From: Rhizobium leguminosarum
Lineage (GTDB): Bacteria; Pseudomonadota; Alphaproteobacteria; Rhizobiales; Rhizobiaceae
Reading direction: 5' to 3'
Assembly (NCBI RefSeq): GCF_001652265.1
Contig: NZ_LWBS01000417.1
Span: 190,128 to 254,127, forward strand
Length of the DNA stretch: 64,000 bases
Shown in pieces: positions 40,912-57,927 of this stretch (positions within the stretch are counted from its first letter, which is position 1; the number at the start of each line of letters is the position of its first letter). A model generated the notes under the pieces. That model did not search any database and was not told the DNA's origin. It worked only from the letters and a program-made list of their open reading frames with translations. Made by a program: the position numbers and the translations under genes.

Positions 40912-42654
40912 CTAAAAAAGCGCGTCGGCGAAAAGGTCTTCATCGTTTTCGGCTTTGGCGGCCTCGGCGGGGGCGGGAGTATTGCCCTCGCTTGCCGGGA
41001 TGATATCGCGATGAATGTTGCGCTCCTGGACCATCGTATAGTGCTTGAAGATCTTGCGGTCGAGCGGCGCGATCATCTCGGCGAGATCGGAAATATCGGC
41101 GACATTGGTGCCGGCGACGCCTTCGAGCAGATCGGCGCAGCCGGCAAGGACTTCGCCGAGGTCATGCTGGAAATCGAGCTTGCCGATCAGCAGGCTGATC
41201 TTTGTGGCGACCTCGCGACCGTTCTCGGCGAGCACCTTCAGCTCGTTTTCCATCAGGTTGGCTGCAGAGCGGATGTTGCCGACGGCCGACGTCAGGCTCT
41301 CTCCCAGGTTGCCGGCTCCGGCATCGGCGGCGGGGGCGACGCGCCCGGCCGCGGCTTCGAGCGCCGGCAGGCCATTGACGATGGCGTCGGCGGAATCGTC
41401 GAGCTTGCCGGCGAAGATGCGCAGCTCGGCGGTGACGACATTGATCGACCTGCCTTCTTCACCGAGGCGGCTGCAGCGCAGGTTGGTATTCAAAGCCATA
41501 TAGTGAATATCGGTCTTGACGGCGCGGATGTTGCCGATCGATTCGGAGAGCTTAGCGGCCGTGCCGATCGTCGACTGGCTGACCAGGTCGGCCTGACGGC
41601 TTGCCGCGTCGACCTGCTTGACGATTTCATGGGCGGCCGAAACGCTGGATTCCAGCGCGCGCATGAAGTTACCGCCGGCCCCGCCGCTCTCACCGCTCAT
41701 CTGATCGCGCAGCCTGAGGATCTCCCGCATATCGTGGTCGAAACTCGCGATCGTCTTGACGACGTTCTCAGAATCCCGCTGGAAATTTGCACACATGTCG
41801 CTCATCTGCGCTGCGGTCAGATGGTGAATGACGTTCTGGAGGCGCCGGCGCGCGCCGGCGTCGAGCTTTGCGCCATCCTCGCCGGCAAAGAAATCTTCAA
41901 GCAGCGAAAAAGTGGCCTGTACATGCTCGATACGCTGGCGAGTGATATCGCCGATCTGCAGGGCAGACAGCGTCGAGGCGACCTTGCTCTGCACGGCGCG
42001 GGCAATCGCGCCGACCTCGCGCGCAATGGCGCCGAGGTCCTTGCGGTGTTCGGCGATCTTGGCGGCGTCATCACGCAAGGCCCCGGCGACGGCCGGAACG
42101 GTATCGGCATAACCCTTGGAAACACTGGCGCCAAAGGAGGCGGCGAGCTTGACCTCCTTATCGAGACTGTCGAGATGTGTGGCGAAACGGTTGACCTCAT
42201 CGGTGCCGGAATAGATACGCTCCAGAATCTCCTGAGCGAAGCCGGCGAATTCGGCAATGCCGGCGCCGGTGATCTTCACGGTCACGGCGAAGGTTCTGAG
42301 ATAACGCATCGTCTCCTGCATGTCAGCGACGTGCTTGCGCAGTTCCCTGCCGGTATGCGCCAGCGAGACGAGCGCCTGCTGGCGGCCTTCCTCGGTGATC
42401 GGCAGCGCCGTCAGGCTCGCCACCGTGGCCCGGAGATCGGCGCCGGTGTCGCTCGCCTCTTTATTGTCGAGCGCCGTGGTGACGCTCTCGAGCGAGCTCA
42501 GCAAGCGGTTGAGAACATCCATAACCGACAGCAGCACGGTGCCACCTTCGAGGAAACGTTCCTCGACTTGGCCTCGGGCGGATTCCAGGGTCTGGCTGAT
42601 GTCCCGCCCTGATGTGTAGGCTGCAGCGTTCGGCGATACCAGAGCGTGTGCCAC
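40912..42654 (-). CDS. Soluble chemoreceptor-like protein with CheZ-like motifs
   Basis: 580 aa, all helical, with no signal peptide or membrane segment. Residues about 376-420 (KTDIHYMALNTNLRCSRLGE, then RSINVVTAELRIFAGK) align with the chemoreceptor tip of the three neighbouring Mcps but have lost the EAARAGE core. At 236-240 GDITRQ has the DxTxQ spacing of the CheZ active site. The last ten residues DEDLFADALF resemble the CheY-binding C-terminus of CheZ. Start is GTG 42654 after AAAGG. It is divergent from the che cluster by 340 bp, so shares its promoter region. A CheY-P phosphatase or sink is an inference; annotation as an Mcp-like protein is certain. Confidence 0.75.
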   Translation of the reverse strand: MAHALVSPNAAAYTSGRDISQTLESARGQVEERFLEGGTVLLSVMDVLNRLLSSLESVTTALDNKEASDTGADLRATVASLTALPITEEGRQQALVSLAHTGRELRKHVADMQETMRYLRTFAVTVKITGAGIAEFAGFAQEILERIYSGTDEVNRFATHLDSLDKEVKLAASFGASVSKGYADTVPAVAGALRDDAAKIAEHRKDLGAIAREVGAIARAVQSKVASTLSALQIGDITRQRIEHVQATFSLLEDFFAGEDGAKLDAGARRRLQNVIHHLTAAQMSDMCANFQRDSENVVKTIASFDHDMREILRLRDQMSGESGGAGGNFMRALESSVSAAHEIVKQVDAASRQADLVSQSTIGTAAKLSESIGNIRAVKTDIHYMALNTNLRCSRLGEEGRSINVVTAELRIFAGKLDDSADAIVNGLPALEAAAGRVAPAADAGAGNLGESLTSAVGNIRSAANLMENELKVLAENGREVATKISLLIGKLDFQHDLGEVLAGCADLLEGVAGTNVADISDLAEMIAPLDRKIFKHYTMVQERNIHRDIIPASEGNTPAPAEAAKAENDEDLFADALF

Positions 42655-42994
42655 TTTTATACCTTTTGTTAAAATCCAGGCAATTCAACTCTATTTTTAC
42701 GGGCAGGATGGAAACGTCCGGTAAACGCGCCGGACTCGCCAGCGTTGTGATTAACGAAAGATGTTGATGGCGTATCGGTAAAAGCCCAACGCTCGATTTG
42801 ATGATTCAACATATTGTTTTTATTTTATTTATTTCTAAATTCTGAGAAAAAAATACAACTTATCCCGGATGAGAATTGGGAGTCGCCGGACTCGCTATAC
42901 GGCAGTTTCCTACAACCGCTGTTTACCCCGCATTAACGCTGCCGTGAGAGTCCTTTTAGGGTCATCAAGTATTTCTCTGGCCCAGGAGGCTGCA
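42655..42994. promoter_or_regulatory. Divergent control region of the che cluster
   Basis: 340 bp without a credible gene. It contains an unusually AT-rich tract at about 42805-42860 (long T/A runs such as TTTTTATTTTATTTATTT), unlike the GC-rich surroundings. It should hold the promoters of both the STAS-che operon and the receptor-like gene. No clear -35/-10 was assigned. Confidence 0.45.
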
Positions 42995-43324
42995 TTGGAT
43001 ACTCAGAAGCAATATTACGAATCTATAAATTTGCCGGACGTGCTCAGCATTCGTAACGTGTCCGAACTATATTCCAAGCTTAACGACGAATTTCATAACC
43101 GCGATGCAATCATCATCAGCATTCCCGAAGGCGCAGAAGCGGATCTGAGTTTCATTCAACTCATCGAGTCCTCGCGTCGCCAAGCAAAGGTTAAGGGAAA
43201 GACGTTCGAGCTTTCTTTGCCGGCCAGCGGCTCTGTCCTGAAAGTACTTGAGCGCGCAGGTTTCATCGAATCCTTCGATCGCGAAGACGCAAAGTTCTGG
43301 TTGCATAAAGAGGTGACGTTATGA
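42995..43324 (+). CDS. STAS-domain protein, first gene of the che operon
   Basis: 109 aa single STAS domain: INLPDVLSIRNVSELYSKLN, DAIIISIPEGAEADLSFIQL, IESSRRQAKVKGKTFELSLP and VLKVLERAGFIESF. The usual phosphorylatable Ser sits near DLSFIQ. Such proteins are anti-sigma-antagonist-like switches; in che clusters they may carry receptor-array or output signals. TTG 42995 is preceded by AGGAGG at 5 nt, better than any upstream candidate. ATGA overlap with cheY. Confidence 0.82.
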   Translation: MDTQKQYYESINLPDVLSIRNVSELYSKLNDEFHNRDAIIISIPEGAEADLSFIQLIESSRRQAKVKGKTFELSLPASGSVLKVLERAGFIESFDREDAKFWLHKEVTL

Positions 43325-43689
43325 GTGCAAATATCCTGACTGTCGACGATTCCGCCAGCATTCGTCTGACCACCAAGGTCACGCTGACCAATGCCGGCTA
43401 TCGCGTCACCGAGGCGGTCAATGGGGCAGAGGGCCTCGCGACGGCGAAGGGCAGCAGCTTCGATCTGATCGTGACCGATCTGAACATGCCTGTCATGGAC
43501 GGGCTGACGATGATCGAGGAACTGCGCAAGCTGCCGGCGCAGGCCGGCGTTCCTATCATCTTCCTGACGACGGAATCGGACGCCGATCTCAAGGCGCGCG
43601 CCAAGGCCGCCGGCGCGACGGGCTGGCTGACCAAGCCGTTCGACCCGGAAAGCCTGGTGAAGATCGTGAAGAAGGTTCTTGGACGATGA
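43321..43689 (+). CDS. cheY: Chemotaxis response regulator CheY
   Basis: 122 aa single receiver. Asp53 in LIVTDLNMPVMDG is the phosphoacceptor; acidic pair in VDDSAS, Thr in FLTTESD and Lys in WLTKPFDP complete the site. No output domain. Overlaps STAS and cheA by 4 nt on both sides. It is the presumed partner of the CheA encoded next. Confidence 0.95.
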   Translation: MSANILTVDDSASIRLTTKVTLTNAGYRVTEAVNGAEGLATAKGSSFDLIVTDLNMPVMDGLTMIEELRKLPAQAGVPIIFLTTESDADLKARAKAAGATGWLTKPFDPESLVKIVKKVLGR

Positions 43690-45731
43690 GTACGCTCGAT
43701 CCCGTCGCCGTATTCCGCACGGAGGCTGCCGAATGCCTCGAAGCGATCGAGGCCGGTCTTCTCGACCTCACTCACCAGCTCGACAACAAGGATCTCGTCG
43801 ACGCCGTGTTCCGCGGGCTCCACACGCTCAAGGGCTCCGGCGCGATGTTTGGTTTCGAGGCGCTCGCCGCCTTCACCCATCATTGCGAAACAGCCTTCGA
43901 CCGCGTCCGCAAGGGCGAGGTCGCGGCGACCAGCGAACTCGTCGCCGCCGTCCTTGCCGCTCAGGACCATATGCGTGCCCTCGTCGACCAGCCGGACGCC
44001 GATCATGGCGATATTGGGCATAAGCTTCTGGCGCAGTTGCAGGCCGCCGTCGGCGGCAAGGAAGCGGTGCCGGCCGCTGTTCCGGCACCCGCAGCCGTGC
44101 GCGAGACGCCGGCGAAGAAGAAGAACAGCTGGCGCATCCGCTTCAGCCTGCCTGCCAATTCGATGGCCAACGGCACCAACCCGCTCGGTCTGCTGGACGA
44201 GCTGCGTGATCTCGGCGAATGCACCGTGCGCGCCAATACCTCGGCCATTCCGGCGCTTGACGAGCTCACTCCGACGGATCTCCATATTTCCTGGGACGTG
44301 ACGCTGACTAGCGAGCAAGACCGTTCGGCGATCGACGACGTCTTCATCTTCGTGCTCGATGACATGGAACTCAGTGTCGAGGAGATCGACGGGCCGACAG
44401 CGGCAGCCGTCGCTTCGGCCGATGAAAAGGCAGCCCCTGCGCCTGTCGCCGCGGCATCGGCGGCGCCCGTTCCGCCGGCGGCCGTCCCGGAATTCCGTCC
44501 TGTCGAGGCGGTTCCGGCCAAGCGCGAGGCGCCCGCCGCCGTCAGCCAGGCGAAGGCGGCCGAGAACGTCCGCGTTCCGGCCGAGCGTCTCGACGAGTTG
44601 ATGGATCGCGTCGGCGAGCTCGTCATCGCGCAATCGCGCCTCAGCCAGCTCGCCAGCGCCAGCACCGATATCGCGCTACGCTCCGTTTCGGAAGAAATCG
44701 AACGCCTCTCCGGCGAATTGCGCGACACGATGATGGTGTTGCGCATGGTGCCGGTCGCCACCCTGTTCTCCCGTTTCCGCCGCCTCGTCCATGATCTCGC
44801 CCGCGAGACCGGCAAGGTGATCGAACTGGTGACGGAGGGCGAGAGCACCGAAGTCGACAAAACAGTTATCGAGCGTCTGGCCGATCCGCTGGTGCATCTG
44901 GTGCGCAACTCGATCGATCACGGCCTCGAAACGCCCGCCGATCGCCTTGCCTCCGGCAAGATCGAAGCCGGCACGGTGACGCTTTCGGCCCGCCAGGCCG
45001 GCGGCGAAGTGATCATCTCGATCAAGGACGACGGCCGCGGCATCAATCGTGAACGGGTTCGCGCCAAGGCGGAATCCTCCGGCCTCATCCAGCCCGGCCA
45101 GCCGCTTTCCGACTCCGAGCTGCTGCAGCTGATCTTCGCCCCTGGCTTCTCGACGGCTGCCGCGATCACCAATCTGTCCGGCCGCGGGGTCGGTATGGAT
45201 GTGGTGAAGAAGACGGTCGAAGCGCTCCGCGGCGCGATCGATATCGTCAGCCTGCCGGGGCAGGGTTCGGAAGTGTCGCTGCGCATCCCGCTGACGCTCG
45301 CCATCATCGACGGGCTGCTGGTACGCGTCGGTTCCGGCCGCTACGTCATCCCGCTCTCGGCGGTCGAGGAATGCCTCGAACTGTCGCTCGAGGAAGATCT
45401 CCGCTCGCGCGGCCGCAGCTTCATCTCGCTGCGCGACAGCCTGGTGCCGTTCCTGCGCCTGCGCGATCTCTTCCGCACCGGCACCAAGCCCGACGTGCAC
45501 CAGAAGGTCGTCGTCATATCCACAGGCACGGAGCGCGTCGGTCTCGTCGTCGACCAGATCATCGGCGACCACCAGACGGTCATCAAGTCGATGTCGAAAC
45601 TGCACAATAACGTCGCGACCTTCTCGGGCGCGACCATTCTCGGCGACGGCAGCGTCGCGCTCATTCTCGACGTCGGGCACCTGGTTGCCGCGGGTCAGCA
45701 ACAGGAGGCGCAATTGCGTGTAGCAGGATGA
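43686..45731 (+). CDS. cheA: Chemotaxis histidine kinase CheA
   Basis: 681 aa. P1 HPt with His46 in RGLHTLKGSGAMFG. A P2-like domain follows (about 140-240; KKKNSWRIRFSLPA, DDVFIFVLDDMEL). The Ala/Pro-rich linker leads to the P3 dimerisation domain (PAERLDELMDRVGELVIAQS). P4 ATPase has LVRNSIDHGLETPADR, IKDDGRGINRERV and FSTAAAITNLSGRGVGMDVV. P5 CheW-like domain ends the protein. Reads as a full kinase. ATGA overlaps with cheY and cheW. Confidence 0.96.
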   Translation: MSTLDPVAVFRTEAAECLEAIEAGLLDLTHQLDNKDLVDAVFRGLHTLKGSGAMFGFEALAAFTHHCETAFDRVRKGEVAATSELVAAVLAAQDHMRALVDQPDADHGDIGHKLLAQLQAAVGGKEAVPAAVPAPAAVRETPAKKKNSWRIRFSLPANSMANGTNPLGLLDELRDLGECTVRANTSAIPALDELTPTDLHISWDVTLTSEQDRSAIDDVFIFVLDDMELSVEEIDGPTAAAVASADEKAAPAPVAAASAAPVPPAAVPEFRPVEAVPAKREAPAAVSQAKAAENVRVPAERLDELMDRVGELVIAQSRLSQLASASTDIALRSVSEEIERLSGELRDTMMVLRMVPVATLFSRFRRLVHDLARETGKVIELVTEGESTEVDKTVIERLADPLVHLVRNSIDHGLETPADRLASGKIEAGTVTLSARQAGGEVIISIKDDGRGINRERVRAKAESSGLIQPGQPLSDSELLQLIFAPGFSTAAAITNLSGRGVGMDVVKKTVEALRGAIDIVSLPGQGSEVSLRIPLTLAIIDGLLVRVGSGRYVIPLSAVEECLELSLEEDLRSRGRSFISLRDSLVPFLRLRDLFRTGTKPDVHQKVVVISTGTERVGLVVDQIIGDHQTVIKSMSKLHNNVATFSGATILGDGSVALILDVGHLVAAGQQQEAQLRVAG

Positions 45732-46237
45732 GTGCAACAGCAGCAGCCGAACGATTCGACAATCACTGGAGCTATGCCGAGGAAGTCGAGGTCCTGACCT
45801 TCGATCTCAACGGCGAAACCTTTGCGCTGGAAGCCGTCATCGTTCAGGAAATCCTGGACCTGCTTCCTGAGACCGCGGTGCCGGGCAGTCAGCCCTTCGT
45901 CGCCAGCGTCATCAACTTTCGCGGCAAGGTCATTCCGCTCGCCGATCTGCGTCTCGCCTTCGGGATGGAAGCAGCGGAGGCGACGATCGACAGCCGCATC
46001 ATCGTCATCGAGATCGATCTGCAGGGCGAGCAGACGCTCGTCGGCCTCAGAACCGACAAGGTGAACGAGGTGACGACACTTGCAAAGTCCGCGAGCGAGG
46101 CGCCGCCGAGCATCGGCATGCGCTGGCGCGCCGATTACATCAACTGCCTGGTGAAGAGGGGCGGAGAATTTATCATTCTCCCTAATCTGCAGGCGATTTT
46201 TTCATCGAGGCACAATGCGGCAGGAGCCGCCAGCTGA
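45728..46237 (+). CDS. cheW: Coupling protein CheW (copy 1)
   Basis: 169 aa. The CheW fold is clear from VEVLTFDLNGETFALEAVIV, QEILDLLPETAVPGSQPFVA and SVINFRGKVIPLADLRLAFG. It links receptors to CheA. Overlaps cheA by 4 nt. Mcp1 follows 31 nt later, so this segment is one transcription unit. Confidence 0.95.
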   Translation: MSATAAAERFDNHWSYAEEVEVLTFDLNGETFALEAVIVQEILDLLPETAVPGSQPFVASVINFRGKVIPLADLRLAFGMEAAEATIDSRIIVIEIDLQGEQTLVGLRTDKVNEVTTLAKSASEAPPSIGMRWRADYINCLVKRGGEFIILPNLQAIFSSRHNAAGAAS

Positions 46238-46268: not shown

Positions 46269-47978
46269 ATGCGATTGACAATCAAGACAAAACTGGTGAC
46301 CGCGTTCACCTTCATCATCCTCATACTCATGGGCACCGCTGCCTACGGCATCGTCAGCCTTGGATCGCTGAACGACACGATTGGCAACCTCCTCGCCGGT
46401 CCGGCAGCCCGTCTCGACCTCGCCCAGCAAATCAACATTGCCCAGCTCGAGGCCATCCGCCAGCAGAAGAACCTGCTCACCGCCCGCACTGCCGACGAAA
46501 CGGCGGCTGCGATCGCCAAGGGCAATCAGGCCCGCAAGGACTTTACCGATGCCTTCGGCCAGGTGCTGGCGCTGGCAACGGAAGAGGGCAAGGCGCGCTG
46601 GGCGCGCATCGCCGAACTTTCCAAGACCTTCAATGCGGCTGACGATCAGATCCGCGACTATGTGAAGGCCGGCAATGCCGAAGGCGCAAATACCATTTCC
46701 GTGACGGCTGCGCGGGCCGCTGCCAACGATATCGACTCGACGCTTGGCGAAATCCTGGCACTTGAAAAGCAGCGCATGAAGGCTGCCGACGATAGCGCCG
46801 ACGCGCAGTATGCGGCCACACGCATGATGATGATGGCGGTGGCAGCCGTTGCCCTGTTGGTTGCGGCCATTACTGCCTTCTGGATCGCCAGCACGATCAG
46901 CAGGGGCCTCAGCCGGGCCAACACCGTGGTTCGCGAAGTGTCGGAAGGCGATCTGACGAAAATGGCCGACATCACCAGCCGCGACGAAATCGGCGAGCTT
47001 CTGGGTAACGTCAACACGATGATCGAACGCCTGCGCGGCGTCGTCGCCGACGCACTATCGGCCGCCGACAATGTCTCATCCGGCAGCCAGGAACTTTCGG
47101 CGAGTTCGGAACAGGTATCGCAGGGCGCAACCGAACAGGCCGCTTCGGCCGAGGAGGCTTCTGCCTCGATGGAGCAGATGGCTGCCAACATCAAGCAGAA
47201 CGCCGATAACGCCGCCCAGACCGAAAAGATCGCCCGCCAGTCGGCCAAGGACGCGGAGATGAGCGGTGAAGCGGTGACGCGTGCGGTCGACGCCATGCGC
47301 ACGATCGCCCAGAAGATCGGCATCGTCCAGGAGATCGCCCGCCAGACCGATCTCTTAGCTCTCAACGCCGCCGTTGAAGCCGCTCGTGCGGGTGAACACG
47401 GCAAGGGTTTTGCGGTGGTCGCCTCGGAAGTGCGCAAGCTTGCCGAACGCAGTCAGTCGGCCGCTGCCGAAATCAGCTCGATGTCGAGCGACACGGTCAA
47501 AGCTGCCGCCGATGCCGGCGACATGCTCGGCCGGCTGGTGCCCGACATCCGCAAGACGGCGGAACTGGTCTCCGAGATCAGTGCGGCCTGCCGCGAACAG
47601 GATATCGGCGCCTCGCAGATCAACGAGGCGATCCAGCAGCTCGACAAGGTGACGCAGCAGAATGCCGGTGCTTCCGAGCAGATGTCGGCAACCTCCGAGG
47701 AACTCGCCTCCCAGGCGGAGGAACTGCAGACCTCGATCGCCTTCTTCAAGGTCGATACGGCAGGCAGCGCGCGGCCTGGTGCCCACAAGACCCAGCCAAA
47801 GGCTTCGGCCAAGGTGCTCAAGGCCCCGGACGCTGTCCGCAAACCCGCCCCGCAGGCCCACAGCCAGAGCCGTGGCCAGACGGTTTCGGCTCAGCAGCAG
47901 CGTCTCAAAGGCTTTGCTCTCGATATGTCGATGGGCGGTCCAGACGCCAGCGACGACGATTTCAGGCAGAGCGCATAA
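46269..47978 (+). CDS. Methyl-accepting chemotaxis protein 1
   Basis: 569 aa. Membrane helix 1 at residues about 9-31, a periplasmic four-helix ligand domain (32-184), helix 2 at about 185-208, one HAMP domain and the cytoplasmic signalling domain with the tip [20 protein letters not shown] near 352-375. The tail ends [19 protein letters not shown] without NWETF, so it has no classical CheR tether. Tip is intact, unlike the divergent soluble relative. A hairpin (GGGAGAG/CTCTCCC, 47988-48006) follows the gene. Confidence 0.95.
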
Positions 47979-47987
47979 GCGCTGCCC

Positions 47988-48101
47988 GGGAGAGGCTAGC
48001 TCTCCCGCGGAAAGCGCTTGAGCGCCTTCGCCTCAAAGTGATCCCTCGGGCTGCTCCGGCGGCCCGAGACGGGAATATCCCCCAACGCATGTAGGCGTTG
48101 G
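47988..48101 (+). terminator. Three hairpins between mcp1 and mcp2
   Basis: GGGAGAG/CTCTCCC (47988-48006), CTCGGGC/GCCCGAG (48045-48068) and CCAACGC/GCGTTGG (48082-48101). None has a T-run directly after it. They may stabilise or attenuate the long che transcript, or mark a boundary. The rest of this 266-bp gap has no gene. Confidence 0.45.
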
Positions 48102-48244
48102 CGCTGCGATCGATAGATTTCCGGCTGCCGGGAAGTGAATGTAGTCGCTTTCCCCCTTTTCAGACACATCACTTTCAAGCTCGACGCCCCACCGATGGGA
48201 CGTGTCTCTATCCATTCGTTTTGACCGCAAATAGGGGGTATCAC

Positions 48245-50167
48245 ATGCGTTTCACCATCAAGCTCAAACTGGGTCTTGCCTTCGGCATCATGACGCTGCT
48301 GCTGATCGGCATTGCGGTTTATGGAAGCCTGAGTCTCGGCACACTGAACGAGGCAAGCGGCAATATGATCGACGGCCCGATGCGCCGCCTGGAACTTGCG
48401 CTGAACGCCAATGTTGCCGAAGTCAACGCCATCCGCGCCCAGAAGAACGCGCTGCTTTCCACGGATCCCGACGCGACTGCCGGTTTCAACAAGGAAGCCG
48501 ACCAGAACTTGCAGGCCATGTTCGATGCTGTCGATGCCGGCCTTGCGATCGCCTCGCCCGAAGGCAAGCCCTATTGGGAAAAGCTGCTGACGATCGGTGC
48601 GAAATTCCGCGACAGATCCGCCGAACTGCAGCAGCTTGACGCCAGGGGCGATCAAGCCGGCGCACTGGCGCTGTCGCTCGGCGACCTGCGCGCGATGACC
48701 AACGACATGGGTGACGCGATTGCCGCACTCATCGAGATCCAGCGCAAGGGCATGAAGGCGACAGATCAGTCGAACACCGATCTTTACAGCTCGACGAAGC
48801 TGATCCTCGGCGCCGCTTCCGGTATCGCCGTGCTCATAGCTCTCGGCGCTGCATTGTGGATCACGCTCGGCATCAACAACGGTCTGCGGAAGATCACGAC
48901 CGTCGCAAACGCCGTCGCGATCGGCGACCTCAACCAGACGGTGGATGTCAAGACCAATGACGAGATCAAGGATCTCATCAATACGGTCAATGCCATGACT
49001 GCCAATCTGCGCGCCACGGCAGCACTTGCCGACCAGATCGCCATGGGCGACCTCAGCACCGACGCCAAGCCGCTTTCGGACAAGGATGCGCTCGGCATCG
49101 CGATGCAGAGCATGATCTCCAACCTGCGGACCACCGCCGGCATCGCCGACCAGATCGCGAACGGCGACCTGACGGTGTCTCCGAAGCCGCTCTCCGATAA
49201 GGATGCGCTGGGCATCGCGCTCGAACAGATGGTCGAGCGCCTGCGCGGCGTCGTCGCCGACGCGATCTCCGCTGCCGAAAACGTCTCTTCCGGCAGCCAG
49301 GAACTTTCGGCAAGCTCGGAACAGGTATCGCAGGGCGCCACCGAACAGGCGGCGTCCGCCGAAGAGGCGTCCGCCTCGATGGAGGAGATGGCCTCCAACA
49401 TCAAGCAGAACGCCGATAACGCCGCCCAGACGGAAAAGATCGCCCGCCAGTCGGCCAAGGATGCGGAAGCCAGCGGCGAGGCCGTCTCCCGCGCCGTCGA
49501 CGCCATGCGCACGATTGCCCAGAAGATCGGCATCGTCCAGGAGATAGCCCGCCAGACCGACCTTCTCGCTCTGAATGCAGCCGTCGAAGCTGCTCGTGCG
49601 GGTGAACACGGCAAGGGATTTGCGGTCGTCGCCTCGGAAGTGCGCAAGCTTGCCGAACGCAGTCAGTCGGCTGCTGCGGAAATCAGCGCCATGTCGACTG
49701 ACACGGTCACGGCTGCCCAGGAAGCCGGCGACATGCTGGGCCGCCTGGTGCCCGATATCCGCAAGACAGCGGAACTGGTCTCAGAGATCAGTGCGGCCTG
49801 CCGTGAACAGGATATCGGGGCTGCCCAGATCAACGAAGCGATCCAACAGCTCGACAAGGTGACGCAGCAGAATGCCGGTGCTTCCGAGCAGATGTCGGCA
49901 ACCTCCGAGGAACTTGCCTCCCAGGCGGAGGAACTGCAGACCTCGATTGCCTTCTTCAAGGTCGATACGGCAAGCAATCGCCAGCATCGCGTGCCGGCCG
50001 CCAAAGTCACCGTCCGTAGCCCGGCTCCGGCAGCACCACGCAAACCGGTCGGCAAAGCGCCCGCCAATACGATCGCCGGCCAGCAGGCCCGTGTCAAAGG
50101 CTTTGCTCTCGACCTATCGATGGGTGGGCCCGACACGACGGACGATGATTTCCGGGAAAGCGCATAG
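48245..50167 (+). CDS. Methyl-accepting chemotaxis protein 2
   Basis: 640 aa, the longest of the three. Helix 1 at about 9-31, periplasmic domain, helix 2 near 186-208. Then about three HAMP units in tandem: [40 protein letters not shown] and [20 protein letters not shown]. The signalling tip is the same [20 protein letters not shown] near 434-456. The C-terminal tail [19 protein letters not shown] matches Mcp1. Over long stretches the 3' half is almost identical in DNA to mcp1 and mcp3. Confidence 0.95.
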
Positions 50168-50185
50168 GGCTTCCCGTTCGCTCTT

Positions 50186-50213
50186 GTCGCGGGCCAGCCA
50201 GTGCGCCCGCGAC
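50186..50213 (+). terminator. Hairpin between mcp2 and mcp3
   Basis: GTCGCGGGC (50186-50194) pairs with GCCCGCGAC (50205-50213), a perfect 9-bp stem and a 10-nt loop, with no T-run after. It lies 19 nt past the mcp2 stop, parallel to the hairpins after mcp1. Confidence 0.45.
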
Positions 50214-50352
50214 GCATGCTTCCGGCGTTTGTGGGTGCCGGCACGGAGATCCGTGAACATGTCGTCGCCTGCCGGAACGTTTTGCTGCATGACGCCGCAT
50301 CAAGGAATAGCCGGTTCAAACTTATTACGTCGCTCTCACAAAGGATATTGAG

Positions 50353-52158
50353 ATGCGTATCACGATCAAGCTTAAGCTCGCGGCCGCGTTCGGCTTCGTC
50401 ATTTTGTTGCTGGTGGGCAGCGCGGTGTATGGGATCATCAGCCTCAGCTCGCTGAACGATGCTGTCGGCAACCTTGTCGCGGGTCCTGCAAAAAGCCTGG
50501 AACTCGCCCTGGAAGCAAAAGCTGCGGAGCTCAATGCCATTCGCTGGCAGAAGAATGCCCTCCTGGAAATGGATCCTGAGGTGGCCGGGAAGAATTATCA
50601 GAACTCGGCGAAGAGCATGGATGAAATGCTCAGCTTCGCGACGGCCGGCGAACAGCTCGCAACGGCTGACGGCAAGCCCACCTGGGACAGGCTGATCGAA
50701 CTGGCCAGACGTTTCACCGAAGGCTCTCACAAAGTCGCCTCCATCCAGGAAAGTGGTGACAGGGCAGGGGCCAATGCCCTGTCGTCAGGAGAGGTTCGCG
50801 CCATCGTTACGGAACTGGAAGACGTCTTTGCGTCGCTCGTTACGCAGCAGCAGAAGTCGATGGCACAGGCCGACGACGACACCGAAACCCTTTATGGCTC
50901 CACCAGGAACCTGCTGATTGGCATCGCTATCGGCGCTTCCGTCATCGCTTTTGCCGCCGCATTGTGGATCGCGCTCGGCATCAACAGCGGCCTGCGCAAG
51001 ATCATGAACGTTGCCGGCGCTGTTGCCGTTGGCGACCTGAACCAGAAGATCGAGATCAAGAGCAATGACGAGATCAAGGATCTCGTGAACACGATCAACA
51101 TGATGACGGATAATCTTCGCAACACTGCGGAGATTGCCAATCAGATCTCAAACGGCGACCTGACGGTGTCTCCGAAGCCGCTCTCCGACAAGGACGCGTT
51201 GGGCATTGCGCTCGAGCAGATGGTCGAGCGCCTGCGCGGCGTCGTCTCCGACGCGGCCGCTGCCGCAGAAAATGTCTCGGCCGGCAGCCAGGAGCTGTCG
51301 TCGAGCTCCGAGCAGGTGTCGCAGGGCGCCACCGAACAGGCGGCGTCGGCCGAAGAGGCTGCCGCCTCGATGGAAGAGATGGCCGCCAACATCAAGCAGA
51401 ACGCCGATAACGCCGCTCAGACGGAGAAGATCGCTCGCCAGTCGGCCAAGGACGCGGAGATGAGCGGTGAAGCGGTGACGCGCGCCGTCGACGCCATGCG
51501 CACGATCGCCCAGAAGACCGGCATCGTCCAGGAGATCGCCCGCCAGACCGATCTCTTGGCGCTCAACGCCGCTGTGGAAGCAGCGCGCGCCGGAGAGCAC
51601 GGCAAGGGGTTTGCGGTCGTCGCCTCGGAGGTGCGCAAGCTTGCCGAACGCAGTCAGTCGGCCGCTGCCGAAATCAGCTCGATGTCGGGCGATACGGTCA
51701 AGGCCGCTCAGGAAGCCGGCGACATGCTCGGCCGGCTGGTGCCCGATATCCGCAAGACGGCGGAACTGGTCTCCGAGATCAGCGCCGCCTGCCGCGAACA
51801 GGATGTCGGCGCTTCGCAGATCAACGAAGCGATCCAGCAGCTCGACAAGGTGACGCAACAGAATGCCGGTGCTTCCGAACAGATGTCAGCGACCTCGGAA
51901 GAGCTCGCGACCCAAGCGGAAGAACTGCAGGCCTCGATCGCCTTCTTCAAGGTCGATACGGCAAGCCATCGCCAGCATCGCGTGCCAGCCGCCAAGGTCA
52001 CGGTGCGCAGCACGGCTCCCGCCGGCCGCAAGCCTATCTCCAAGAAGCCGGCTGCCAATAGCGTCGCCGGCCAGCAGGCGCGGGCCAAAGGCTTCGCTCT
52101 CGATCTCTCCATGGGCGGTCCCGATGATGGGGACGCCGAGTTCAAGGAAAGCGCATGA
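50353..52158 (+). CDS. Methyl-accepting chemotaxis protein 3
   Basis: 601 aa, between Mcp1 and Mcp2 in length because it carries two HAMP-like units ([20 protein letters not shown] and [20 protein letters not shown]). Helix 1 about 9-31, helix 2 about 186-208. Tip [20 protein letters not shown] near 394-417. Tail [18 protein letters not shown]. Its stop overlaps the second cheW (ATGA). The periplasmic domain differs from Mcp1 and Mcp2 more than the signalling half does, so the ligands may differ. Confidence 0.95.
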
Positions 52159-52637
52159 TCATGGCCACGACATCTCTGGAAGCGCAATTCGTGACCTTCA
52201 GCCTCGGCGAGGAGATTTTCGCCGTGCCGGTTGAGGTGGTGCGGGAGATCCTCGACTATGCGGAAGCTTTCAAGATTCCGAATGGTCCCGACTATCTGCT
52301 CGGTCTGCGCGACGTGCGCGGGCAGGGCGTGCCGACGATCGATCTTCGCTTGAAGCTCGGCATGACGAAGACGGTGCCGACGCCGCACACGCGGGTGCTC
52401 GTCCTCGACGTGCCGATGGAAAGCCGGCTCCTGACCCTTGGCCTCGTTGCCGACCGCGTCTTCGAGGTCACGCCATTCCGGCACGAGCAGATCGAGGCGG
52501 CGCCTGATATCGGCGTGCGTTGGCGCTCGGACTATATCGCCGGCGTCGTTCGTCGTGAAAACGGCTTCGTCGTCATCATCGATCTCGCACGGTTGCTGTC
52601 GCGCGAGGACGCCTCGGCACTGCAATCAGCGGCCTGA
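52155..52637 (+). CDS. cheW: Coupling protein CheW (copy 2)
   Basis: 160 aa. CheW fold: [40 protein letters not shown] and [20 protein letters not shown]. Starts at ATG 52155 (ATGA overlap) or at ATG 52161. It differs clearly from CheW1 (different hydrophobic contacts near the C-terminus), so the two may favour different receptors or CheA. Confidence 0.95.
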
Positions 52638-52664
52638 CCGCATCAACTCGGAGTACTGCGTTCT

Positions 52665-53519
52665 ATGAGCATGGCAGCGGTGGAAACCCAATTGCCGGGC
52701 GACCGGATCAGCAAGCGCAATTTCGATAAGCTTGCCCGGTTCATCTACGATTATAGCGGCATCAAGATGCCGTCGACCAAGCTGACGATGCTTGAAGGGC
52801 GGCTGAGGCGCCGCCTTCGCGCAACCAACCATGCGACCTTCGACGATTATTGCGACTTCCTCTTCAATCATGATGGCCTCGACCAGGAAACCGTCTACCT
52901 GATCGACGTGGTGACGACGAACAAGACCGACTTCTTCCGCGAAGCCAAACATTTCGACTATCTGCAGACGGTCGCGCTGCCAACGATCGCCAACAGCGGC
53001 GTTCGGACCATCCGCACCTGGAGTTCGGCCTGCTCGACGGGAGCCGAGCCCTATACGATGGCGATGGTGTTGGCGGAATTCGCTGAAAGCCGCAATAACG
53101 TCTCCTACAGCGTGCTGGCCACCGACCTTTCCACCGATGTGCTGCAGACGGCGCGCCGGGGCATCTATCCGGAAGATCTGATCGCGCCGGTGCCGCGCGA
53201 CCTGCAGCGCAAATATGTGCTGACGGCCAAGCAGCCGGATCGGCGGGAGGTGCGCATCACGCCGAAACTGCGCAGCAAGGTGGGCTTTGCCCGGATGAAC
53301 CTGATGGACGAGAAATACCCGATCGGCGAGTTGATGAACGTCATCTTCTGCCGCAACGTGCTAATCTACTTTGACAAGCAGACTCAGGCCGGTGTTCTCA
53401 ACCGCCTCTGTGCCTGCCTGGCGAAGGGCGGCTACATGTTCATCGGCCATTCTGAATCGATCACCGGCTTCGATCTGCCGTTGAAACAGGTCTCGAATAC
53501 GGTGTTTCAGCGTATCTAA
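52665..53519 (+). CDS. cheR: Chemotaxis protein methyltransferase CheR
   Basis: 284 aa. N-terminal helical domain with [20 protein letters not shown] and [20 protein letters not shown]. The SAM-binding domain has [17 protein letters not shown] and [17 protein letters not shown], then [14 protein letters not shown]. Methylates the Mcps with CheB as the opposing enzyme. Stop codon TAA (53517-53519) is the first bases of a decayed RIME1 copy. Confidence 0.96.
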
Positions 53520-53572
53520 AGCGCATCACGTTATCCCAAAACCGCTGCGCACTTCTGGACGGCATGCATTAG
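53516..53572 (+). repeat. RIME1-like element, internally deleted copy A5 (57 bp)
   Basis: CTAAAGCGCATCACGTTATC, then CCAAAACCGCTGCGCACTT and GGCATGCATTAG keep the two termini of the element and lose the middle. It sits in the 61-bp gap between cheR and cheB. Confidence 0.65.
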
Positions 53573-53580
53573 GGGCATTC

Positions 53581-54678
53581 ATGGCTAAGAAAATCCGCGT
53601 CCTTATCATCGACGATTCCGCGAGCATCCGCCAGACGCTGACCCATGTGCTGGAGCAGGATCCCGATATCGAGATCATGGCGGTCGCATCCGACCCCTTC
53701 ATGGCGGCGCGGAAGCTGCAAGAAGAGATCCCGGATGTCATTACGCTCGATGTGGAGATGCCGCGCATGGATGGCATCACCTTCCTGCGCAAGCTGATGG
53801 CGCAGCGGCCGATCCCTGTCGTGATGTGCTCGTCGCTGACGGAGGCGGGTTCGGAAACGCTGCTCCAGGCGCTGGAGGCCGGCGCCGTCGACGTCATCCT
53901 GAAATCGAAGATCGGCGCCGCCGACAGCCTTTCCGACGACGCGATGCGCATTCGCGAAGTCGTCAAGAGCGCTTCGCATGCACGGCTTTCCAACGTCCGC
54001 CGCGCCGCCGGAACTATCCGCTCCGCTTCAGCGGAGGGGCCGGCCAAGAAACTGACGGCGGATGTGATGCTGCCGCCACCGACGGGGCGGGCCATGGCGA
54101 AGACGACGGAGATGGTCGTCTGCGTCGGCGCCTCCACCGGCGGCACCGAAGCACTGCGCGAGTTCCTGGAGGAACTGCCGGCCAATGCGCCTGGCATGGT
54201 GATCGTCCAGCATATGCCGGAGAAATTCACCGCCGCCTTCGCCAAGCGGCTGAACGGGCTCTGTGAGGTAGAGGTCAAGGAAGCCGTCGATGGCGATCCG
54301 GTGCTGCGCGGTCATGTGCTGATCGCGCCTGGTGACAAACATATGCTGCTCGAGCGCCAGGGTGCGCGCTACTATGTGAGTGTGAAGACCGGGCCACTGG
54401 TGTCGCGCCACCGGCCTTCGGTCGACGTGCTCTTCCGCTCGGCGGCGCGCTCGGCCGGCTCGAACGCCATGGGCATCATCATGACCGGCATGGGCGACGA
54501 CGGCGCGCGCGGTATGCTGGAAATGCATCAGGCCGGCGCCTACACGGTGGCGCAGGACGAGGCGAGTTCCGTTGTTTTCGGCATGCCGAAGGAGGCGATC
54601 GCCAAAGGCGGTGTCGACCGAATCCTGCCGCTCGATCAGATCGCTCGCGAAGTGCTGATGACGCAACAGAAGTTCTGA
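53581..54678 (+). CDS. cheB: Chemotaxis methylesterase/glutamine deamidase CheB
   Basis: 365 aa. Receiver domain (1-120) with Asp57 in [13 protein letters not shown]. Linker about 125-165. Catalytic domain with Ser in [15 protein letters not shown], His in [14 protein letters not shown] and Asp in [11 protein letters not shown]. Removes receptor methyl groups. The last che gene of the cluster. No cheD follows. Confidence 0.96.
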
Positions 54679-55788: not shown

Positions 55789-56892
55789 ATGGAAAATGTG
55801 AATGTGGCGGAGATCGGCTCCACCGAAAAGACGGCGGGCATTTATGCCAACAGGCTTTCGAGCCCCATGCCCTTCCTCTGGACGATGCTGCTTTTCCTCG
55901 TCATCGTCGGTTTTATCGCCGCTATCCTCTTCCGCCAGACGCAGACCGCCTTCATGCACAATCCGGGCCTCAACGGCCTGATCGTCGGCGTTCTCGCGGT
56001 CGGAATCATCCTTGTTTTCAACCATGTACTGGCGCTTCGCCCCGAGGTGCGCTGGTTTAATTCGTTCCGCGCCGCCGGCAGTGCCGACAAGGTCAACCGC
56101 AATCCGCGGCTGCTTGCGCCAATGCGGGCGCTGCTCGGCAGCCGTAAGTCCTCGGTGTCGCTGTCGACGACGGCGCTGCGCTCGATCCTCGACTCGATTG
56201 CCAGCCGCCTCGACGAATCGCGCGACGTTTCACGCTACCTGATCGGCCTCTTGGTCTTTCTCGGCCTGCTCGGCACCTTCTGGGGCCTCATCGGCACGAT
56301 CGGTTCGATCAGCGTCGTCATCCAGTCGCTCGATGCCGGCTCGAACGGCACAGGGGACGTGCTCTCGGCGCTGAAGGAAGGGCTTTCCACGCCGCTTTCG
56401 GGCATGGGCCAGGCCTTCTCCTCCTCGCTGCTCGGCCTTTCAGGTTCGCTCATTCTCGGCTTCCTCGACCTGCAGGCAGGCCGCGCGCAAAACCGCTTCT
56501 ACATGGAGCTGGAAAACTGGCTGTCCTCGGTCACGGATGTCGGCTCCGATCTTGCCCCGGCTCTCGACGCCGTTTCCGGTGCTTCCTCGGACGACATGCG
56601 AGCTCTCTCCGATTATCTGCGCAAGGTCGCCGAAGAGGGTGGCGCCGGCAGCCAGCGTTCCGTCGCCGCCATGGCGAGCCTTGCCGAAGGTATTCAGGGC
56701 CTGGTCAAGAACATGCGCAACGAACAGCAGATGCTGCGCGACTGGATCGAGGCACAGCAGGACGAGGCGAAGGCGATGCGCCGCACGCTCGACCGGCTCG
56801 CCGAACGCATCGGCGTGCAGGAGCGTGCAGGCGATCGGGGCGAGCGTTTGCGCGACCGCGCCAGCCATGCGGAAAAGAGCGAGGGCAAGTAA
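55789..56892 (+). CDS. MotA/TolQ/ExbB-like proton-channel protein
   Basis: 367 aa. Membrane helices at about 28-48, 62-85, 148-175 and 205-230. The pore helices resemble the MotA/TolQ family (YLIGLLVFLGLLGTFWGLIG with T and G pattern; FSSSLLGLSGSLILGFLDL). A long cytoplasmic tail (about 235-367) is mostly helical and charged. It should form a five-subunit channel with the partner encoded 3 nt downstream. It is not the flagellar MotA, since no other fla genes are near. Start ATG 55789. Confidence 0.88.
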   Translation: MENVNVAEIGSTEKTAGIYANRLSSPMPFLWTMLLFLVIVGFIAAILFRQTQTAFMHNPGLNGLIVGVLAVGIILVFNHVLALRPEVRWFNSFRAAGSADKVNRNPRLLAPMRALLGSRKSSVSLSTTALRSILDSIASRLDESRDVSRYLIGLLVFLGLLGTFWGLIGTIGSISVVIQSLDAGSNGTGDVLSALKEGLSTPLSGMGQAFSSSLLGLSGSLILGFLDLQAGRAQNRFYMELENWLSSVTDVGSDLAPALDAVSGASSDDMRALSDYLRKVAEEGGAGSQRSVAAMASLAEGIQGLVKNMRNEQQMLRDWIEAQQDEAKAMRRTLDRLAERIGVQERAGDRGERLRDRASHAEKSEGK

Positions 56893-56895
56893 GCT

Positions 56896-57927
56896 ATGGC
56901 TCTTGCCCGCAACCGGCGCCGCGAACGCACGGTGGATTACTGGCCGGGCTTCGTCGACGCGCTGTCGACGCTGCTCATCTCGATCATGTTCCTGCTGACG
57001 GTCTTCGTCGTCGGGCAGTTCATCCTCAGCCGCGAGATCACCGGACGCGATGAGGTGCTCAATCGCCTCAACAGCCAGATCAACGAGCTGACGCAGCTTC
57101 TCGCGCTCGAAAAGGGCAGCAACCAGGATCTCCAGGATTCGGTCGCCAACCTGCAGGCCTCGCTTGCCAGTGCCGAAGGCGACCGTTCGCGGCTACAGGC
57201 GCTGCTGAATGCCGGTTCGGGCGGCCAGGATGCGGCGCAGAAGCGGATCGGCTCGATGACGCAGGAGCTTGACGAGCAGAAGCAGGTGAGCGAACGGGCG
57301 CTCAGTCAGGTCGAACTGCTGAACCAGCAGATCTCAGCGCTTCGCAGCCAGATTGCCGCCGTCGAAGCAGCCCTTCAGGCGTCGGAGGAGAAAGACCGGG
57401 TCTCGCAGACCAAGATCGCCGATCTTGGCAGCCGCCTCAACGTGGCGCTCGCCGCACGCGTGCAGGAGTTGAACCGCTACCGTTCCGACTTCTTCGGCCG
57501 TCTGCGCGAGATCCTCTCGGACCGCGAGAATATCCGCATCGTCGGCGACCGGTTCGTCTTCCAATCGGAAGTGCTGTTTCCCTCGGGTGGTGCCGATCTC
57601 AACCCGGAGGGGCAGACCGAGATGGCAAAGCTTGCCGCCGCCCTTCTCGATCTCGCCAAGGAAATCCCGCCGGAGATCAACTGGGTGCTGCGCGTCGACG
57701 GGCATACCGACAATGTGCCGCTTGCCGGAACGGGCCGCTATCGCGACAATTGGGAGCTCTCCTCCGCGCGCGCGATTTCGGTCGTCAAGTTCCTGATCGC
57801 ACAGGGCGTGCCGGCCGACCGGCTGGTTGCCGCCGGCTTCGGCGAGTTCCAGCCAATCGCGCCGGGAGATACGCCGGATGCGCGCTCTACCAACCGCCGC
57901 ATCGAGCTGAAGCTGACCGAGAAGTGA
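56896..57927 (+). CDS. MotB/OmpA-like peptidoglycan-anchored partner
   Basis: 343 aa. One membrane helix (16-41) begins YWPGFVDALSTLLISIMFLL and keeps the channel Asp21 that protonates in MotB. A long coiled coil (about 45-200) replaces the plug region. The C-terminal OmpA domain (about 210-343) has RVDGHTDNVPLAGTGRYRDN, WELSSARAISVVKFLIAQG and STNRRIELKL. Together with the upstream gene it forms an ion-driven stator-like complex. The stop TGA is followed immediately by a family-B repeat. Confidence 0.9.
   Translation: MALARNRRRERTVDYWPGFVDALSTLLISIMFLLTVFVVGQFILSREITGRDEVLNRLNSQINELTQLLALEKGSNQDLQDSVANLQASLASAEGDRSRLQALLNAGSGGQDAAQKRIGSMTQELDEQKQVSERALSQVELLNQQISALRSQIAAVEAALQASEEKDRVSQTKIADLGSRLNVALAARVQELNRYRSDFFGRLREILSDRENIRIVGDRFVFQSEVLFPSGGADLNPEGQTEMAKLAAALLDLAKEIPPEINWVLRVDGHTDNVPLAGTGRYRDNWELSSARAISVVKFLIAQGVPADRLVAAGFGEFQPIAPGDTPDARSTNRRIELKLTEK

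Follow-up and report, generated by a model that had tools for sequence, protein, structure and literature searches.

The window analysed here (i.e., the whole stretch of 64,000 nucleotides from Rhizobium leguminosarum, contig NZ_LWBS01000417.1) carries a chemotaxis gene cluster with the order STAS-CheY-CheA-CheW-MCP-MCP-MCP-CheW-CheR-CheB, opposite which (divergently oriented) lies an open reading frame with a GTG start codon for a protein of 580 aa. The features relevant to this protein are the following, with coordinates given as positions in the window:

40912-42654 (-): candidate MCP-derived CheZ-like protein, 580 aa (open reading frame)
41863-42612 (-): N-terminal hairpin, residues 15-264 (AlphaFold model and Foldseek; homologous to the C-terminal half)
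42253-42273 (-): N-terminal hairpin tip, residues 128-134 (the C-terminal half has its MCP tip in register with this one)
41923-41958 (-): CheZ-like active-site motif Q233-x-G-D236-x-x-R-Q240-R-x-E-H244 (8 invariant columns in 28/28 homologues)
41065-41862 (-): C-terminal MCP-like hairpin, residues 265-530 (PF00015, E=9e-4, below cut-off)
41449-41490 (-): degenerate MCP hairpin tip, residues 389-402 (N389 and G398 invariant)
41152-41178 (-): second DFQ-like stretch, residues 493-501 (equivalent of the first motif in the duplicated half)
41011-41040 (-): Y-T-M-x-x-E-R-x-x-H segment, residues 539-548 (conserved)
40915-40950 (-): putative CheY-binding tail, a C-terminal peptide of acidic and hydrophobic type, residues 569-580 (type kept in 28/28 homologues)
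42869-43324 (+): STAS-domain protein, divergent and conserved neighbour (STAS_2, E=4e-5, below cut-off)
43321-43689 (+): CheY, putative substrate (Response_reg, E=1e-28)
43686-45731 (+): CheA (Hpt, H-kinase_dim, HATPase and CheW domains)
45728-46237 (+): CheW
46269-52158 (+): three MCP genes (the first by Pfam, the other two by translation of the open reading frames)
52155-54678 (+): CheW, CheR and CheB

As the best homologues bear the names of Rhizobium leguminosarum and species close to it, we regard the che cluster as the counterpart of Che2. The Che2 cluster of strain 3841 (Rlv3841) is classed as F8 in the accessible part of the source (PMC7617929), and we take the window's CheA to be of class F8 by analogy with this published assignment. 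The STAS-domain gene heads the F8 cheY-cheA cluster and is kept as a neighbour at most loci read. No match to Pfam CheZ was found in this genome (the assembly is 93% complete and the negative holds at Pfam's sensitivity), and a review states, in its available text, that CheZ is not encoded by S. meliloti, A. fabacearum or R. leguminosarum (PMC8429497). Of 100 genomes sampled from the genus, 86 encode a homologue of the 580-aa protein; the database names listed for the family are “chemotaxis protein”, hypothetical, or misleading (YukE, MlaD).

Several other genes were recorded nearby or at related loci. Downstream of che2 and an inositol-monophosphatase gene, the region 55789-57927 encodes a membrane protein that matches ZorA weakly and that we read as MotA/ExbB-like, together with a protein whose translation looks OmpA-like. 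In three other genomes, the gene immediately upstream of the homologue, on the same strand, encodes a response regulator that contains an HD_5 (HD-GYP-type) domain (L032, 7763-9025; L034, 7740-9062; L037, 6798-8027). A transposon screen gives RL4037 of strain 3841 as growth-impaired, according to the portion of the paper at hand (PMC5118466); judged by its number RL4037 is a neighbour of the che2 genes, and it is probably distinct from the gene of the 580-aa protein (8 insertion sites for RL4037 vs 23 TA sites in the gene studied here).

Tandem MCP hairpins, active-site-like motif and tail

The 580-aa protein consists of two MCP hairpins in tandem, so the preliminary description, which had called it receptor-derived, is well supported on this point. 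The predicted model shows two helical hairpins (the CheZ fold is a dimeric four-helix bundle of hairpins), and the structural matches listed for it are MCPs and generic bundles (those to pore-forming toxins, TTYH and SMC proteins were set aside as generic helical-bundle matches of low identity). When the N-terminal half was modelled alone with AlphaFold, Foldseek gave 8 matches with E<=0.001, all of them MCP cytoplasmic domains (including fusions and models). CheZ is not among the structural matches listed for either model, which excludes nothing. At the profile level the family matched solved MCP structures with E=4e-15 for the C-terminal half, and the two halves are homologous to each other (hhalign P=2e-5). 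The N-terminal tip coincides with a non-helical turn at residues 130-133 of the predicted model, and no Pfam sensor or HAMP domain was found in the protein.

The motif D236-I-T-R-Q240, with the spacing of the CheZ active site, is present as previously claimed. On its own it carries no meaning, since 1.27 such D...Q pairs are expected per protein from composition and two were observed (at 236 and 356). Conservation separates these two pairs. Specifically, all 28 homologues have both D236 and Q240, whereas at 356-360 D is found in 7 and Q in 5 of the 28. The homologues (L001-L028, all from the order) were collected by a whole-protein search, with BLAST identities to the query down to 23% and global identities of about 18-23% for the most distant ones. 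They share 19 invariant columns, 8 of which (Q233, G235, D236, R239, Q240, R241, E243 and H244) form the most conserved stretch; such packing into 12 columns occurred in 0 of 20,000 random placements, a descriptive figure as neighbouring columns are not independent. Our statements on invariance rest on these 28 sequences because a DNA pattern for the motif was used to retrieve the 80 named loci, which thus contain DxxRQ in 80/80 cases by construction. In CheZ, an F-Q pair directly precedes the active-site D (the AxxFQ motif; accessible part of PMC7750401); in the double-hairpin family the residue before D is G in 28/28 homologues and the F-Q is absent.

The second DFQ-like stretch noted earlier at 494-498 does exist, but it is neither conserved (F495 in 14/28 and Q496 in 11/28 homologues) nor a DxxxQ site, and we rejected it as an active site because of this poor conservation. 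It contains a helix break at 493-494 in the predicted model and is probably a relic of the duplicated motif.

The C-terminal sequence EDLFADALF is likewise as described. The tail ends with two large hydrophobic residues in 28/28 homologues (with an extra A in L028) and has between 2 and 6 acidic residues in its last 12 positions; the linker preceding it is variable, and pLDDT is below 50 at residues 556-580 of the predicted model. Closer to the hairpins, T540, E544, R545 and H548 of the Y-T-M-x-x-E-R-x-x-H segment are invariant in 28/28.

One way to read the clear MCP homology is that the protein has no catalytic role and acts as a cytoplasmic receptor or as part of an array, its hairpins joining CheA/CheW arrays and its motif serving in packing. 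The near-canonical tip retained by the single-hairpin relatives described below would fit this reading, which we nevertheless judge unlikely when the tip of the 580-aa protein is considered. In terms of the Tsr sequence and numbering, residue 393 (41476-41478) occupies the position of E385, a trimer-contact residue that, like E391, belongs to the tip residues controlling the kinase in Tsr. The E385 position is charge-reversed to R or K in 25/28 homologues and the E391 position is E in 8/28, i.e., the conserved kinase-control residues of the MCP tip are not retained in the double-hairpin family, while the DxxxQ segment is invariant. Moreover, a tail-type ending was found in 0 of 36 ordinary MCPs of related loci. 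The drift of the tip, as opposed to the motif, fits a receptor scaffold retained for a non-receptor task.

Linkage to F8-type chemotaxis clusters

Seventeen of 20 distant loci belong to che clusters, where the gene comes directly after cheB in 12 cases and beside STAS-cheY-cheA in 5. The remaining 3, all from one genus, have no che genes nearby; for two genomes of that genus we read the F8 cluster at another site, and five genomes of one genus have the gene apart from their F8 cluster (by neighbourhood in 3 and by position in 2). Across 297 genomes of the order, an F8-type CheA was found in 28, the family in 28 and both in 25 (Fisher p=7e-30, with genomes that are not independent). Here an F8-type CheA was defined by at least 54% identity to the window's CheA (two matches were partial) and family membership by E<=1e-130; as only 3 CheA candidates per genome were scored, misses are possible. 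The three genomes with an F8-type CheA and no family member (G212, G218 and G266) each carry a single-hairpin relative; in G218 and G266 this relative adjoins the F8 cluster, and in G212 it lies in another che cluster. Two of the three family-only genomes, G187 and G281, have a partly deleted che2 and correspond to loci L078 and L085. A Pfam CheZ match was obtained in 13 of the 28 family-bearing genomes and none in 15 (counts that may include single-hairpin proteins), meaning that at the genome level the family does not simply stand in for CheZ.

CheA is encoded within the fetched flank at 71 of the 80 named loci and absent from the flank at 9. At 7 of these 9 the inositol-monophosphatase gene that normally follows cheB is close by, as expected from a deletion within che2. 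Seven Rhizobium loci (L065, L070, L078, L085, L095, L113 and L115) appear to have partly or wholly lost che2, with a gap that runs from the inositol-monophosphatase gene to the gene of the 580-aa protein, the latter still in place.

The tail is kept at 77/80 loci, and its loss is confined to loci where CheA is missing from the flank (3/9 vs 0/71; Fisher p=0.001, with loci that are not independent). Two of the tail losers, L070 and L095, end differently, and L113 is only 376 aa long; all three retain D and Q, and L095 has kept QIGDVARQR with A in place of E243. This pattern favours the view that the tail functions together with the che2 cluster. At the other 6 of the 9 loci the gene is full-length with motif and tail intact, so the protein may act on other CheYs or have a role beyond Che2. 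The earlier suggestion that it acts on the adjacent CheY is plausible, given the linkage with F8-type CheA and the tail loss in some strains that lost cheA, but these 6 loci speak against exclusivity.

Conservation of the tail type, and the fact that the tail goes first where cheA is gone, would also be compatible with a protein that binds CheY~P without hydrolysing it (i.e., a buffer, sequestering adaptor or localisation factor), in which case the motif and the YTMxxERxxH segment could both be binding surfaces. We consider this distinctly improbable, as invariant D and Q residues at CheZ spacing within a conserved flanking frame exceed what binding through a tail needs.

Probable relation to CheZ through single-hairpin relatives

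Direct similarity of the 580-aa protein to CheZ is weak and not significant. The Pfam profile PF04344 gives no match at E<=1. Against a profile of 29 alphaproteobacterial CheZ sequences the N-terminal half reached P=0.0059 and the whole family P=0.01, the latter with its best alignment off the motif and a second-best one (P=0.014) in register. When an HMM of the CheZ block was run on 27,432 open reading frames and reversed decoys, 53 of the top 60 places were taken by family members, but all E-values were 0.27 or worse and the family members are not independent; 128 open reading frames of the set bear the family motif. Membership of the 580-aa protein in the CheZ family is thus not established, the Pfam match and the FQ part of the motif both being absent.

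An indirect link runs through single-hairpin MCP-like proteins with the motif LQFQDxxxQ, which were found with an FQDxTRQ pattern (5 matches in 150 genomes of the phylum, 3 of them used) and in F8 clusters without the family. Rejected along the way were L169 (an unrelated oxidoreductase-like open reading frame) and L171 (no motif-bearing open reading frame of at least 60 aa). These relatives have a near-canonical MCP tip, F-Q before D in most cases and tails of the types IELF, IEFF, IDLF, IQLF, VQLF and VELF; two of them (L170 and L172) contain the segment Y-x-M-x-x-Q-R-x-x-H. All 11 neighbourhoods considered are che clusters, with the gene directly after cheB in 6 and about 1 kb after it in one; two of the 11 (L164 and L165) had been found through their che context and nine by motif or profile, and L178 and L186 were left out of this count.

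We built a profile from the post-hairpin part of 12 single-hairpin sequences, leaving out L187 (different tail) and L179 (same motif and tail segments as L178). Aligned with the 29 alphaproteobacterial CheZ sequences, it gave hhalign P=2.8e-7 and a probability of 93% over 129 columns, in register at FQDxxxQ with FQD on FQD. Controls were far weaker: P=0.16 for reversed CheZ, a best P of 0.031 over 40 column shuffles, and P=0.0037, off the motif, for the post-hairpin regions of 37 ordinary MCPs. Masking the 8 motif columns reduced the signal to P=0.0014, meaning that it stems mostly from the motif and that convergence is possible. We regard a common origin of the single-hairpin relatives and CheZ as likely on the basis of these profile comparisons. 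The N-terminal half of the 580-aa protein in turn aligned with the single-hairpin relatives at P=1.1e-10, with QxGDxxRQR on QFQDxxxQR, whereas ordinary MCPs reached only P=0.055 against it. Pfam CheZ was reached by 1 of 5 single-hairpin relatives scanned (E=8e-4, below cut-off), and 1kmi (E. coli CheZ) ranked only 21st among the 23 matches to the single-hairpin profile, with E=0.58, too weak for use.

H244, invariant in 28/28 homologues and located beside the motif, is the only candidate phospho-acceptor for a phosphate sink, the other role that the preliminary description had offered, or for a phosphotransfer protein. Such a role finds little support and seems to us very improbable: the 580-aa protein has no Hpt or receiver domain, and where it has H244, several single-hairpin relatives have N and the CheZ block mostly has K.

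Proposed function and comparison with known systems

Sequence conservation, the tandem MCP hairpins, linkage to F8 che clusters and a profile similarity that reaches CheZ transitively are the observations from which we propose, with somewhat better than even confidence, that the 580-aa protein is an MCP-derived, CheZ-type putative CheY~P phosphatase of F8 chemosensory systems that works like CheZ. The CheZ-like phosphatase suggested beforehand is thereby upheld in terms of conservation, tail, gene context and the transitive profile link, and not in terms of direct CheZ membership. CheZ tethers CheY~P by its tail and uses its Gln to position a water molecule for attack on the phospho-Asp. In the proposed scheme, a soluble chemoreceptor would have been duplicated head to tail into a single chain with two MCP hairpins, the N-terminal one having its CheZ-type active site on the second arm, close to the base, and a flexible linker would end in the CheY-binding peptide. 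The tail is predicted to bind CheY~P, and Q240 (with D236), acting as in CheZ, would be placed at the phospho-aspartate and speed up its hydrolysis, which would reset the class-F8 (Che2) pathway. CheY binding, catalysis and the choice of substrate CheY are all predictions for this protein.

A broader generalisation appears to us possible though rather doubtful, namely that many cheZ-less che clusters of Pseudomonadota encode a chemoreceptor-derived, MCP-hairpin phosphatase with a CheZ site and tail, often directly after cheB, which in F8 systems of Hyphomicrobiales takes the form of a double-hairpin single chain, and that CheZ itself may likewise stem from a receptor hairpin.

If the proposed function is correct, a dedicated off-switch made from receptor parts would fill the missing phosphatase component of F8 systems, suggest how receptor hairpins and CheZ are related, and account for a gene family with uninformative or misleading database names. 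In a literature search that covered few subscription journals we found no description of the double-hairpin family. Rhizobial class-F8 clusters are described without a phosphatase in the accessible parts of two sources (PMC8429497, PMC7617929), the second of which reports that Che2 of R. leguminosarum influences bacteroid development.

Compared with CheZ (PF04344) of E. coli and alphaproteobacteria, the 580-aa protein has the same D-x-x-x-Q spacing with similar flanks (motif segments: ACNFQDITGQRI in alphaproteobacterial CheZ vs ALQIGDITRQRI here), as well as a helical hairpin, a variable linker and an acidic, hydrophobic C-terminal peptide. It differs in lacking the Pfam match, in having G instead of Q before D, and in being built as 580 aa from two MCP hairpins, with a tip-to-motif arm of about 105 residues in the model. 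The corresponding arm of E. coli CheZ is about 40 residues long.

A precedent for a DXXXQ protein that is hard to recognise by sequence is CheT of S. meliloti, which, compared here by description only, belongs to an F7 che cluster and is reported to enhance dephosphorylation of one CheY~P; the available text of the review describes it as having no clear sequence similarity to known chemotaxis proteins and a CheZ-like predicted structure (PMC12654446). The differences, again by description, are the F7 cluster and the MCP hairpins, which that text does not mention for CheT (PMC12654446).

With MCPs (PF00015) the 580-aa protein shares the MCP-type cytoplasmic hairpin in both halves, and it departs from them by its tandem duplication, drifted tip, additional motif and tail, and lack of a Pfam sensor or HAMP domain. 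Closest in motif, tail and che-cluster position are the single-hairpin LQFQDxxxQ proteins, which differ in having one hairpin, a near-canonical MCP tip and FQD where the 580-aa protein has GD; these MCP-like proteins of che clusters are an unnamed group, recognised here.
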